This document shows positions 15,494 through 36,464 of a DNA stretch of 36,605 nucleotides, piece by piece. The position numbers and the translations under genes were made by a program. The DNA is taken from contig NZ_JAHWCI010000010.1 in the NCBI RefSeq assembly GCF_019550915.1, forward strand, positions 1 to 36,605, given 5' to 3'. Every line of letters starts with the position of its first letter. The stretch's first letter is position 1. This DNA comes from Mumia sp. zg.B17 (GTDB taxonomy: Bacteria; Actinomycetota; Actinomycetes; Propionibacteriales; Nocardioidaceae). A model generated the notes under the pieces. The model saw only the letters and a program-made list of their open reading frames with translations, was not told the DNA's origin and searched no databases.

Positions 15494-16840
15494 ATGACCG
15501 ACTACTCGACACTGGCGGACCGCCTGACCGGGACGCTGACCACTCGGGACGAGCCAGACCACACCGCCGGCGCGACCGCGTTCAACCTGACCGTCCAGCA
15601 CGACCCCGACGCGGTGGTCCACGCGGCGACCGAGGAGGACGTGCTGCAGACCGTCCGCTTCGCCGCCGCGGAGGGAGTCCCGATCCACCTCCACACGACC
15701 GGGCACGGTGCGCACGCCGCGTACGAGACCGGCATCCTCCTTGTCCTCGGCGGGCTCTCGTCGGTCGCGATCGACCCCGCCGCGCGGATCGCGAAGGTGG
15801 GGGGCGGCACGCGCTGGGCCGATGTCGTCGCCGCGGCGGCCGAGCACGGTCTGGCACCGGTCACGGGGTCCTCGACCAACGTCGGCGTGGTCGGCTTTCT
15901 CGTCGGCGGGGGCCTCGGCCCGCTGGCACGCAGCCACGGCTTCGGGTCGGACCACGTGGTCTCGGCGCGGGTCGTCACAGGCAACGGGGAGGTGGTCGAC
16001 GCGTCGTCGTACGGCGACACCGAGCTCTACTGGGCCCTGCGCGGCGGTAAGACCGGACTCGGAGTGGTCACCGAGATCACGCTCGCGCTGGCGGAGGTGC
16101 CGTCGCTCTACGCGGGCACCCTCTTCTTCGACCTCGAGGAGAGCACCGAGCCGTACGCGCGCTGGCTCGACTGGACGACCACGGCACCGACCGACGTCAC
16201 GACGAGCGGGCTCATCGTCCGCTTCCCCGACCTCGAGGTCGTCCCGTCGCCGATGCGGGGCAAGCACCTGTTCGCGCTCCACGTGGCGTATCCCGGTCCC
16301 GAGGACGACGGAGCGGCCCTGAGCGAGCCGCTGCGCGAGCTGGGGTCGGTCTATCTCGACGACCTTGGACCGCTCCCGCTGGCCGACGTCGCACGGATCA
16401 CGAACGATCCCACCCAGCCCGGCCCGTCCTTCCTCCGCGGAGCGACGCTGACGCACGTCGACCGCGACTTCGCCGAGGCCGTGCTCGCGCTGGCTGGCCC
16501 GGGCAGCGACCTGCCGATCATGGGGCTGGAGATCCGCCACGTGGGCGCCGCGACGGCGGTGGAGACCTCCGGGACCGATGCCGTCGGGTTCCGAGACTTC
16601 GACTACACGCTGACGATGCTGGGAGCTCCTGACCCGGCCCTCTTCGGAGAGGTCCTGCCGAGCGTGTTCGCCCGGGTGGAGGAGACGGTGGCGCCGTGGC
16701 GTTCTCCGCACCTGACGCCCAACTGGATGGCCGACCCACGCGATCCCGACGAGGAGGCACGGACCTGGCCGGCAGGCGTGCGCGCACGGCTCGCCGCCGT
16801 CCGCGCCGCGTACGATCCCGCGCACGTGTTCCAAGCCTGA
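15494..16840 (+). CDS. FAD-binding oxidoreductase (BBE/VAO type)
   Basis: 448-residue flavoprotein of the vanillyl-alcohol oxidase/berberine-bridge superfamily. The PCMH-type FAD domain covers about residues 25-205. The segment TTGHGAH includes H71 at the place where these enzymes attach FAD through histidine, and GSSTNVGVVGFLVGGGLG is the following FAD-binding loop. The Cys used for a second covalent link in bicovalent relatives was not seen. The end (YDPAHVFQA) resembles the BBE C-terminal tail, usually YDPxxxF. Relatives oxidise sugars, alcohols or alkaloids with oxygen as acceptor; the substrate here is not known. GAAGGAG lies about 9 nt before the ATG. Confidence 0.85.
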   Translation: MTDYSTLADRLTGTLTTRDEPDHTAGATAFNLTVQHDPDAVVHAATEEDVLQTVRFAAAEGVPIHLHTTGHGAHAAYETGILLVLGGLSSVAIDPAARIAKVGGGTRWADVVAAAAEHGLAPVTGSSTNVGVVGFLVGGGLGPLARSHGFGSDHVVSARVVTGNGEVVDASSYGDTELYWALRGGKTGLGVVTEITLALAEVPSLYAGTLFFDLEESTEPYARWLDWTTTAPTDVTTSGLIVRFPDLEVVPSPMRGKHLFALHVAYPGPEDDGAALSEPLRELGSVYLDDLGPLPLADVARITNDPTQPGPSFLRGATLTHVDRDFAEAVLALAGPGSDLPIMGLEIRHVGAATAVETSGTDAVGFRDFDYTLTMLGAPDPALFGEVLPSVFARVEETVAPWRSPHLTPNWMADPRDPDEEARTWPAGVRARLAAVRAAYDPAHVFQA

Positions 16841-17113: not shown

Positions 17114-17130
17114 GGGCAGCGGCCGGCACG

Positions 17131-17203
17131 TGCTCCCGGCGGGATTCGAACCCACACTGAGACGGGTTTAAGCCGTCTGCCTCTGCCGTTGGGCTACAGG
17201 AGC
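17131..17203 (-). tRNA. Class I tRNA, anticodon UAA (Leu by codon; short variable loop)
   Basis: A complete 73-nt cloverleaf on minus. The acceptor arms GCTCCTG and CGGGAGC pair over 7 bp with one U-G. T8 and A14 are in place, the D stem is GCC/GGC, the anticodon stem is GACGG/CCGTC with loop CTTAAAC, the variable loop is TCAGT, the T stem is GTGGG/CCCGC with loop TTCGAAT, and the discriminator is A73. Positions 34-36 read TAA, the anticodon for UUA. Normal bacterial tRNA-Leu has a long variable arm; this one has only 5 nt there. CCA is not encoded. It lies 39 nt after the CFA-like gene on the same strand. Confidence 0.85.
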
Positions 17204-17242: not shown

Positions 17243-18034
17243 CTATGCCGGGGCTCCGCTGATCGCGTAGGCCCGCACCGCGCGTCGCTCGAGGTTGTCG
17301 CGCACGAGCACGAGCGACACTCGCCACATCCGCGTGTGCTGCACGCCGACGGCGTCCACGACGGCGTCCCAGTGCTCCATCAGCCGTCCCCCGATCTGGC
17401 GCAGACGCTCGCGCTCGTCGGCGACGGCGTCCTGGACGGCGTCGACGACGAGGCCCTCGCTCTCCCAGCGGGCGATGGCGGCACTGAGTGGCTCGGGCAC
17501 GGTGTAGACGATCTCGGTCCGTGCGTCTGCCTCCTCGGCGCCGCTGCCGAGGATCGCGTCGGCGAGCCCCGCGGGAAGCTCGGCGCGGATCTGGCCCGGG
17601 ACGTCGAGGTGTCCGGTGACCGCGTCGACCGGTTCCGAGGGTCCCCGGGGCGCAGGCCCCACCGCTCCGAGCTGGACGGTCAGGCGCAGGACCTCACGCC
17701 GGTCGGCGGGCTCCAGGGCGCGCTTGGCGGAGGCCTGCTCGACGTAGTCGCGCATCAGGCGGACCGCGGTCTCGAGGTCCCCGTCGACCGTGAGCTCGCC
17801 GGCGATGTAGGCCTTGGCGATGCCCTCCTGCCCCGGCGACCACATCAGCCGGCGGACCGTCCGGCGCGACTCGAAGTGCGCCTCGATGTCGGCGTCACCC
17901 GACTCGGGTTCGACGCGGGAGCCGTCCCAGGCGGTGAAGGTGACTGGCGGTGCTTCGCCGTAGACCTGCACGAGCAGGTCGACCAGTCGGCCGGCCACTC
18001 CGGTGGCATGCGTCTCGATGGTGCCCTCAGTCAT
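17243..18034 (-). CDS. CFA-synthase-like protein lacking the methyltransferase core
   Basis: 263 residues. The first 100 or so match the N-terminal lipid-binding part of cyclopropane-fatty-acyl-phospholipid synthases: [32 protein letters not shown], then [10 protein letters not shown]. The last 90 match the C-terminal end of the same enzymes: [15 protein letters not shown], then [11 protein letters not shown] and MWRVSLVLV. The SAM-binding core of about 200 residues between these parts, with its GCGWG-type motif, is absent, yet the frame is intact. Methyltransferase activity is therefore not expected. The start is ATG at 18034, 6 nt after AAGGAGG; the frame opens at a TTG at 18040. It overlaps the DNA glycosylase gene by 8 nt, indicating co-transcription. 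Confidence 0.8.
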
Positions 18035-18872
18035 CTCCAACCTCCTTGGCGCGGATCATGACGGCGTCGAGCATGGGCTCGGTGAGCCGTCCTGTGAACG
18101 TGTTCTGCTGGCTGGGGTGGAAACAGCCCAGAAGCTGGACCGTACCCCCCGACGGTTTCGGGAGGGTGACCTCGACACCATGACCGAACTTCGGCCGCGG
18201 TCGCGGGACCACCGCACCGAGTGCACCCAGGGTCCGCAGCGCCGCGTCCCAGCCGTAGCCGCCCAGGGCGACGATCGCGCGCACCGAGGGCAGGACCTCA
18301 CGGAGCTCCTCCTCCAACCAGGGTGCGCAGGTGTCGCGTTCATCGTTGGTCGGTTTGTTCGCCGGAGGCGCGCAGCGCACGGCGGCGACCATGCGGGCTC
18401 GGAGCAGTCGCTGGCCGTCGCCGGCGTGGGTGCTGGTCGCCTTCGCGGCCAGGCCGACACGGTGCAGCGACGCGAACAACCAGTCGCCGGAGCGGTCACC
18501 GGTGAAGATCCGGCCCGTCCGGTTGCCCCCGTGCGCGGCCGGCGCGAGGCCGACGATCAGGACCTTCGGCTCGGGGTCGCCCCACCCGGGGATCGGCCGC
18601 CCCCAGTACGGCTCGTCGGCGAACGCCCGCCGTTTGGTGACCGCGACCTCCTCACGCCACGCGACGAGGCGCGGGCACGCGCGACAGACCGAGACCCGTG
18701 CGTCGAGGTCGTGGAGAGAGTCGGCCCGGGCGGCCAGCGCGCGGACGTCGGCGGCGCCCTCGGCCATCGGCGTCGACGCAGTCGCGGGATCGTCGGGCCA
18801 GCCCGTGCCGGGCAGGACCGGCGAGGTGAACGCCGACGAGGTCAGCGGGTCACCGTCGACTCTGCCAGACAC
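18027..18872 (-). CDS. udgB: Uracil-DNA glycosylase, family 5 (UdgB type)
   Basis: 281-residue base-excision enzyme that removes uracil and other deaminated bases from DNA. Motif A reads [14 protein letters not shown] (109-122), lacking the catalytic polar residue of family 4 as expected for family 5, and motif B is [11 protein letters not shown] (252-262). Four Cys (C63, C66, C167, C182) match the 4Fe-4S cluster ligands. The GTG at 18872 is supported by TAGGGT ending 6 nt upstream, giving a leaderless message. The N-terminal 50 residues are low in conservation features, and an ATG at 18767 is a possible alternative start. It is the first gene of a unit with the CFA-like gene and perhaps the tRNA. 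Confidence 0.9.
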
Positions 18873-34772: not shown

Positions 34773-35525
34773 TCAGGAATCGTCGCCGTGATCGCGCACG
34801 AACGCCGCGACCTCGTCGGCGAACTCGTGCCGGCAGACCAGCAGGTCGGGCAACCAGGGGCTGTCACGGTTGTACTCGAGAGCCCTGCCGTCGGCGCGAC
34901 TCGTGAAGAGGCCCGCTACGCGCGCCACGACGACCGGCGCCGCCGAGTCCCACTCGTACTGACCGCCCGCGTGGACGTAGACGTCGGCGAGATCCCGGAC
35001 CACCGACATGACCTTGACGCCCGCCGACCCCATGGGCACCAGCTGGGCACCGGTCTTCGCAGCCAGCGCGTCGACGAAGGCGGGCGGGCGGCTGCGGCTG
35101 ACCGCGATGCGCATCGGGCCGTCGGTACGCGGCGGGACCGTCGCGGGACGAGCGGTGCTGAAGGTCTCGCCGAGCGCGGGCTGCGCGACCGCTCCCGCGA
35201 CCAGGTCACCGTCCTCCCACAGCGCGACGTGGACGGCCCAGTCGTCGCGCGGCGGCTCGGAGAACTCTCGGGTGCCGTCGAGCGGGTCGATGATCCACAC
35301 CCGGCGCGCCGACCGGCGAGCCGAGTCGTCGGCCGCCTCCTCGCTCAGCACGGCATCCTCGGGGCGGTGCTCGGCGAGGAGCCGCGCCAGCACGGCCTGG
35401 CTCGCCGCGTCACCGGCATCCTTGAGCGCCTTGCCCTCCAGCCCGGTTCGGCGAACCTCCAGGAGCTCGGCGCCGGCCTGCTCGGCCAGCCAGACTGCGA
35501 GGTCGTGGTCGTTCATCGACGTCAT
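34773..35525 (-). CDS. cysQ: 3'(2'),5'-bisphosphate nucleotidase
   Basis: 250 residues of the lithium-sensitive inositol monophosphatase-fold family. Metal motifs are SEE (61-63), DPLDGTREF (80-88) with D80 and D83, DDW (94-96) and EWDSAAP (191-197). The GQYEWDSAAP form and the N-terminal DAGDAASQ identify it as CysQ (removal of PAP/PAPS) and not as an inositol phosphatase. In mycobacteria CysQ controls sulfate assimilation, consistent with the sulfur gene cbs elsewhere in the window but not linked to it. The start at 35525 has CACAAT 6 nt upstream and no Shine-Dalgarno; the long frame to 36407 is an antisense extension. ATG at 35516 is an alternative. Confidence 0.92.
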   Translation of the reverse strand: MTSMNDHDLAVWLAEQAGAELLEVRRTGLEGKALKDAGDAASQAVLARLLAEHRPEDAVLSEEAADDSARRSARRVWIIDPLDGTREFSEPPRDDWAVHVALWEDGDLVAGAVAQPALGETFSTARPATVPPRTDGPMRIAVSRSRPPAFVDALAAKTGAQLVPMGSAGVKVMSVVRDLADVYVHAGGQYEWDSAAPVVVARVAGLFTSRADGRALEYNRDSPWLPDLLVCRHEFADEVAAFVRDHGDDS

Positions 35526-35531
35526 GTCGTC

Positions 35532-35537
35532 ATTGTG
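35532..35537 (-). promoter_or_regulatory. Possible -10 box of a leaderless cysQ promoter
   Basis: CACAAT on minus (four of six matches to TATAAT), 6 nt before the cysQ ATG. Same geometry as the other leaderless starts in the window. Confidence 0.35.
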
Positions 35538-35579
35538 GCCGATGATCCGGAACGACCTCGCGCGGCCACCGCCCTTCGA

Positions 35580-35585
35580 TAACCT
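35580..35585 (+). promoter_or_regulatory. -10 box of a leaderless methyltransferase-gene promoter
   Basis: TAACCT, 6 nt before the ATG at 35592. No ribosome site is present. It faces away from cysQ across a 66-nt divergent region. Confidence 0.5.
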
Positions 35586-35591
35586 GCTCCC

Positions 35592-36464
35592 ATGCGTGCA
35601 CCTGTACGCCCGATCAGAGGGCGGTGGCCTCGACCGCTCGAGGCGAGACTGGGCAGGGCGTTCCGGGTCGACCCCCTCACGATCCTCGACGACGACGCCG
35701 ACCCGAGCACGTTCCGCGAAGCGATGTCCAGCACCTACGTCGGCGACACGATCAAGATCACCGGAAGCGGCCGCCATGCCGGTGCCGACGATCTGCTGAT
35801 CGGCGCACTCGACCTTCGTCAGGCTGCCATCGTCGACGTCGGCGCCTCGGACGGCTCGACATCGGTCGACCTCGTCGAGCGACTCGGGGAGTTCCGGAGC
35901 TTCACGATCGCCGACCTCTATCTCACGCTTCGTGCAGTCGACGTGTTGGGTCACACGGCCTTCTTCGACGGTCAGGGCCGGTGCACGCTGGTGGCCGGAC
36001 GAAGGCTGGCGGCCTGGCCCGGGCTCTCCCGGCCGGTGGCCCTCCTCTACTCGCCGCTGATCTCCGCCGCTCGTCGCCGTCAGGCGCGTGCGCGGGAGGT
36101 TCTTCTCCTCAACCCCTCGGCGAGGCGACTGATCGCGAGCGACCCCCGCGTGGGATACGCGGTCCACGATGTCTTCACGCCCTGGACCGGTCAGCGTCCG
36201 GACGTCATCAAGGTCGCCAACCTGCTCCGCCGTCTCTACTTCAGTGACCAGGACCTGCTCCGTGCCCTGCGCGCCCTGCACTCGAGCCTCCCCGAGGGCG
36301 GCCATCTTCTCCTCGTCGACAACCCCCGCCGCAAGAACACGCCTCCCGGGGTCGGGCTCTATCGCCGGGAAGGCGACCATTTCACGGAGGTCGCTCGCTC
36401 CGGTCACCCCGAGATCGCCGACCTCGTCACGCTGGTCGGCACGGGCGAACCGTCCTTGAACTGA
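35592..36464 (+). CDS. Class I SAM-dependent methyltransferase-like protein
   Basis: 290 residues. Motif I is IVDVGASDGSTSVDLVERLG (80-99), which fits the Asp/Gly-rich SAM loop. A later DVIKVANLLRRLYFSDQDLL and a terminal LPEGGHLLLVDN resemble the post-motif helices of Rossmann methyltransferases such as CheR. The region 115-180 holds a hydrophobic insert (PVALLYSPLISAARRRQ) that is not typical. The substrate is unknown; it may be a membrane-associated enzyme. It stands alone, divergent from cysQ, with a leaderless start at 35592. Confidence 0.65.
   Translation: MRAPVRPIRGRWPRPLEARLGRAFRVDPLTILDDDADPSTFREAMSSTYVGDTIKITGSGRHAGADDLLIGALDLRQAAIVDVGASDGSTSVDLVERLGEFRSFTIADLYLTLRAVDVLGHTAFFDGQGRCTLVAGRRLAAWPGLSRPVALLYSPLISAARRRQARAREVLLLNPSARRLIASDPRVGYAVHDVFTPWTGQRPDVIKVANLLRRLYFSDQDLLRALRALHSSLPEGGHLLLVDNPRRKNTPPGVGLYRREGDHFTEVARSGHPEIADLVTLVGTGEPSLN

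Follow-up and report, generated by a model that had tools for sequence, protein, structure and literature searches.

Bacterial leucine tRNAs are treated as class II tRNAs with a long variable arm. Among described systems, the closest in codon assignment is the Streptomyces bldA-type class II tRNA-Leu(UAA), whose role is treated in PMC4932002, and one tRNA-seq pipeline assumes that in bacteria the variable regions of Ser, Leu and Tyr tRNAs measure 13-22 nt (PMC6297222). Shorter forms have nevertheless been mentioned, since one surveyed set is reported to include several short-armed tRNAs for Sec, Ser, Tyr and Leu (PMC2474678), and a mycobacterial tRNA cluster is described as carrying a tRNA-Leu(TAG) with a short loop (PMC6582537). 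For M. tuberculosis, some tRNAs, especially tRNALeu-2, 3 and 5, are described as long-looped, which fits short forms for the other tRNALeu of that species, the paper itself being silent on these in its accessible portion (PMC11541572). In E. coli, according to PMC9976931, leucylation needs A73, A15-U48, G18G19 and A20a, while the long variable arm is dispensable. Among the papers listed in searches of the open-access PMC literature, we found passing mentions only, and none that explicitly describes a short tRNA-Leu(UAA) decoding UUA in actinobacteria.

The locus studied here lies on a stretch of 36,605 nucleotides of Mumia sp. zg.B17 (contig NZ_JAHWCI010000010.1, positions 1 to 36,605), hereafter the window. 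Its relevant features are as follows.

17131..17203, minus strand: class I tRNA-Leu(UAA) gene, 73 nt, without encoded CCA (ARAGORN; RF00005, 54.7 bits)
17168..17170, minus strand: anticodon UAA (positions 34-36) in the loop CUUAAAC (sequence reading, ARAGORN, RF00005)
17156..17160, minus strand: short variable region UCAGU (44-48), with U48 kept as the partner of A15 (sequence, RF00005; U48 in 311/313 relatives, see below)
17179..17194, minus strand: leucine-type D arm (10-25), with a 3-bp stem, C13 and A22 unpaired, and A14, A15, G18, G19, A20a and G21 (sequence, RF00005)
17131..17131, minus strand: discriminator A73 (sequence; A73 in 312/313 relatives, see below)
15494..16840, plus strand: neighbouring gene for an FAD-binding protein (PF01565; flank matched in 3/5 congeners by blastn)
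17243..18040, minus strand: neighbouring ORF that matches no Pfam family (blastn finds this flank in 5/5 congeners)

ARAGORN placed a tRNA-Leu(taa) at 17130-17203 on the minus strand as the sole tRNA gene of the window, and the Rfam match at 17131-17203 (E 2.9e-9) covers positions 1-71 of the 71 in the model. Read from the sequence, the acceptor stem is GCUCCUG/CGGGAGC, the D stem GCC/GGC, the anticodon stem GACGG/CCGUC and the T stem GUGGG/CCCGC; the one non-standard pair in the RF00005 match is 13-22 (C.A), a position that is also unpaired, by inspection as G.A, in the class II leucine tRNAs of the same genome. A covariance model of the short family (R1) scored the gene at 96.5 bits, the window sequence itself being among the 28 from which the model was made. 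A scan for sigma-70 promoters and terminators around the gene, insensitive in GC-rich DNA, found none. The class I scaffold with a UAA anticodon, a 5-nt variable region and A73, as described in the initial annotation, is thus borne out by the sequence, ARAGORN and RF00005, and we regard the gene as confirmed to be real and intact rather than an artefact. With the bldA-type tRNA it shares the UAA anticodon, A73 and the reading of a rare codon; in contrast to that tRNA, with its long variable arm (at least 10 nt) and GGAA in the D arm, it has 5 nt and CCAA. It displays every feature of the short actinobacterial and phage tRNA-Leu, namely a class I body, a leucine D arm, C13 and a leucine anticodon.

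The short tRNA-Leu(UAA) is the only UUA decoder detected in its own genome, a 3.86 Mb assembly in 18 contigs that is 99.97% complete. RF00005 identified 46 tRNAs, and ARAGORN read anticodons at all 46 loci; the leucine set comprises class II tRNAs of 84-87 nt for CAA, UAG, CAG and GAG, with UAA represented at 17131-17203 only. A pattern for class II tRNA-Leu(UAA) had no match in this genome, while the same pattern, as a control, found the class II UAA gene in 8/8 genomes of another family (f3) and in 0/36 of the own family (f1); a general class II leucine pattern returned exactly CAG, CAA, GAG and UAG in 6/6 genomes of the genus. The earlier proposal of a second, unconventional UUA decoder working beside a class II tRNA-Leu(UAA) is therefore rejected, the latter having been sought genome-wide and not found. 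As a separate observation, the sole tRNA-Gln(UUG) called in this genome (L073, G000:C12:22550-22629, minus strand) is odd: it measures 81 nt by ARAGORN, has a long variable region by inspection and, at 39.4 bits in RF00005, scores lowest of the 46.

The gene is also conserved well beyond this assembly. Relatives were gathered by DNA search and covariance model, with anticodons taken from ARAGORN, which called a short tRNA-Leu(taa) in 33/36 genomes of the family, including 5/5 of the same genus, and in 5/5 genomes of a second family (f2). The three family members without such a call were G011, where only short CAA and UAG genes were seen, G022, which is 62% complete and in which none was seen, and G023, where ARAGORN assigned no amino acid. 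Family f3 carries the class II UAA form instead, and in family f4 (8/8 genomes) the UAA form is by inspection intermediate, with C20a and a variable region of 7-10 nt. Short CAA and UAG tRNAs occur among genomes of f1, f3 and f4, and one f4 genome (G049) additionally has short GAG and CAG genes. Two side observations concern f4: at L151-L156, L158 and L160 the tRNA-Leu(UAA) stands between class I and class II, and at L159 (G049:C1:4522700-4523100) one stretch of 401 bases holds two short leucine tRNAs, one with a GAG and one with a CAG anticodon.

This conservation bears on the possibility that the gene is a chromosomal remnant of a phage or plasmid. Relatives do occur in phages, with at least 120 viral stretches matching and a best match that is 85.9% identical across 80% of the query, as well as in a plasmid tRNA array. 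Within the genus, however, the congeners carry chromosomal copies of the gene that are 97% identical, and blastn matched both flanks in three of them (L033, L034, L038) and the right flank only in the other two (L032, L044). The gene is a lone tRNA in the window, and the location does not resemble a tRNA array or a mobile element; Pfam found no phage, integrase or mobile-element domain in the eight neighbouring ORFs, three of which matched no family. A lone tRNA within 1 kb is moreover what was seen at 100/101 listed actinobacterial loci, and no class II UAA gene was found that the short one could duplicate. We thus consider a phage or plasmid remnant very improbable, and the recent phage relic that had been put forward among the first readings is rejected, even though phages do carry relatives. 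An ancient mobile origin of the short tRNA family as a whole may nonetheless apply.

The short tRNA-Leu(UAA) is a wide family in many Actinomycetota and is present in phages too. A pattern scan of named genomes gave at least 118 stretches, and ARAGORN called tRNA-Leu(taa) in all 118 listed, which by record title comprise 101 from Actinomycetota (mycobacteria, nocardiae, corynebacteria and arthrobacters among them), 16 from other phyla and 1 unassigned. The viral scan likewise had all 120 of its listed stretches called as tRNA-Leu(taa). Since the counts from both scans are of matches listed, they are not rates: five or more tRNAs within 1 kb were found at 1/101 listed actinobacterial loci and 6/16 listed from other phyla, a lone tRNA at 6/16 of the latter, and among the 120 viral stretches listed 40 had a lone tRNA and 18 had five or more. 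Carriers of the short UAA tRNA include an annotated phage and a Mycolicibacterium plasmid, the latter in a stretch with 18 tRNAs, and in several genomes, e.g., Mycolicibacter (G239) and Gordonia (G207), a short CAA gene occurs alongside the short UAA gene. Two oddities were met along the way. In Gordonia spumicola (G236), contigs C3, C6 and C9 hold three near-identical short UAA matches, one of which has a base missing near the T arm. A tRNA array on a plasmid of Kovacikia minuta (L167) includes short leucine tRNAs reading CAA, UAG, CAG and GAG, and those for CAG and GAG lack the long arm although their D arms resemble class II.

In many Actinomycetota the short form appears, from pattern matches, to stand in place of the class II (bldA-type) tRNA-Leu(UAA). 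Among 149 sampled genomes of the phylum, the short UAA pattern matched 31 (none when reversed, as a control) and the long one 71 (its reversed control matched once in each of three genomes). The two never overlapped, against an expected 14.8 genomes (hypergeometric probability 5e-11, ignoring relatedness), and both types occur, in different genomes, within families f10, f17, f19 and f48. A few extra long-pattern matches in G061, G125, G155, G158 and G170 were by inspection not tRNAs, a tRNA match being present in each of these genomes as well. Given that 47/149 genomes matched neither pattern, the patterns must miss some forms. The long pattern was likewise absent (0/42) from named genomes picked among the at least 118 with a short UAA gene. 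In a survey of 27 genomes, the UAA gene was short in 25, 19 of which had been chosen for it, and long in two controls (G080, G038).

What amino acid such a tRNA would carry can be approached through its identity elements. The initial annotation had raised charging with another amino acid, and a class I body is indeed unusual for leucine; yet the window tRNA holds the full leucine identity set (A73, U8:A14, A15:U48, G18G19 and A20a). In a free-anticodon scan of the collected sequences for class I tRNAs with A14A15...A20aG21A22, all 313 distinct sequences bore leucine anticodons (UAA 258, CAA 27, UAG 22, GAG 3, CAG 3), compared with 9/161 class I tRNAs that have A14A15 but differ at 20a-22. Within the 313, U8 was present in all, A73 in 312 and U48 in 311; U8 and U48 discriminate little, both being common in the comparison set (154/161 and 137/161), where A73 was found in 77/161. 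The pattern used to retrieve most UAA members requires A14, A15 and A20a-A22, so these positions are not independent tests, and the 55 non-UAA members form the freer one. A20a itself is not universal, since the f4 UAA tRNAs carry C20a.

The codon can also be followed in a low-GC relative, IMCC26103, in which we found two short UAA genes and no long UAA pattern match. From 400 kb of this genome we took 308 TTA sites in 44 open frames, masked TTA on both sides and aligned each frame to up to five subjects, so that residues are not independent. TTA aligned to leucine at 318/533 residues, about as often as the leucine controls CTT (362/579) and TTG (200/335). Among other controls, ATT aligned most often to isoleucine (227/660) and GTA/GTT to valine (491/984), while masked ATG, which gave leucine first (107/304), carries no information, methionine's one codon having been masked on both sides. 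These alignments fit a reading of UUA as leucine in this genome. A similar test based on LeuRS was set aside, as it yielded only 2 usable TTA sites, the choice of the longest open frame being wrong in several GC-rich loci. With the identity set intact, a D arm found with leucine anticodons in 313/313 cases and UUA aligning to leucine in a relative, we reject non-leucine charging, and a tRNA inserting another amino acid at UUA is the least credible of the readings considered, with next to no chance of being right.

UUA is nearly unused in the own genome, as had been noted initially: TTA makes up 9 of 123,938 codons in 352 ORFs, picked by length and GC3 from 20 stretches of 20 kb plus the window. 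The single TTA in the window is codon 276 of the ORF at 34776-36407 (minus strand) and precedes the inositol-phosphatase domain of that ORF (residues 328-508); the earlier remark that the scanned window genes hold no in-frame TTA is thus not contradicted. Such rarity, together with the retention of the gene in 33/36 family genomes, could point to a bldA-like regulatory tRNA that decodes UUA as leucine with the main role of gating a few UUA-containing genes. A Pfam scan of 8 of the 9 TTA-bearing ORFs, however, gave six with a domain, which share no common theme and have their TTA outside the domain in 6/6 cases; in five it lies upstream, so that the ORF may start too early there. Furthermore, in the low-GC genome with a similar tRNA, UUA occurs at hundreds of aligned positions, which argues against a short tRNA family specialised for regulation. 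While a mainly regulatory role is less far-fetched than a mobile remnant, we therefore think it unlikely.

Taken together, it is highly probable that the gene specifies a normal, LeuRS-charged UUA decoder that replaces the bldA-type class II tRNA. The leucine tRNA encoded at 17131-17203, which lacks the long variable arm, would be the only one detected that reads UUA, and a single LeuRS would charge it by way of A73 and the core formed by the D and T loops (A14, A15:U48, G18, G19, A20a). Charging without the variable arm should be possible, as the same elements suffice in E. coli. In many Actinomycetota the short tRNA would thus take the place of the class II UAA form, with the other leucine tRNAs retaining the long arm. 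One LeuRS in the own genome exceeds the family cut-off, at 949.7 bits together with its neighbours, the next hit falling below it at 71.8 bits, so the same enzyme would need to act on class I and class II tRNAs alike. A LeuRS above the cut-off was found in 28/30 genomes, the two without one (G067, G074) being 2 of 20 short-UAA genomes and perhaps broken assemblies. We infer that the replacement ran from long to short, and likewise that the tRNA is expressed and charged by LeuRS in its own organism. Of the outcomes which, according to the initial annotation, would make this a normal decoder, the lack of a class II tRNA-Leu(UAA) and the conserved short family were both found, and ordinary charging by LeuRS stays a prediction. 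A more speculative extension, to which we give a small but real chance, is that short tRNA-Leu genes spread via phages and plasmid arrays, perhaps because without the long arm they escape class II-specific toxins or nucleases, and repeatedly displaced class II UUA decoders (elsewhere those for CAA, UAG, CAG and GAG), with one LeuRS serving two classes.

A short, UUA-decoding tRNA-Leu breaks the textbook rule that leucine tRNAs are class II. If this holds for large bacterial groups, models of leucine identity, tRNA-seq pipelines and bldA-based thinking on UUA regulation will need an exception, and related genomes, some with the short and some with the long form, offer a natural experiment on what LeuRS requires of its tRNA. 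Several known tRNAs resemble the one described here. A Streptomyces phage (Karimacvirus, PV165877) has the 85.9% identical tRNA-Leu(taa), 75 nt by ARAGORN, with a short variable region and a leucine D arm, but it is phage-borne and sits amid other phage tRNA genes. The mycobacterial cluster tRNA-Leu(TAG) likewise has a short variable loop, although it is reported as an extra gene beside a normal long isoacceptor (PMC6582537), whereas ours is the only UAA gene found. Human mitochondrial tRNA-Leu(UUR) similarly does without the long variable arm, with A73 and A14 specifying leucine identity, but is organellar and has its own LeuRS (PMC9976931). Finally, the same paper describes armless E. coli tRNA-Leu variants charged via A73 and the D/T-loop core; while those were engineered, the tRNA of the window is a natural counterpart, with charging predicted from its sequence.
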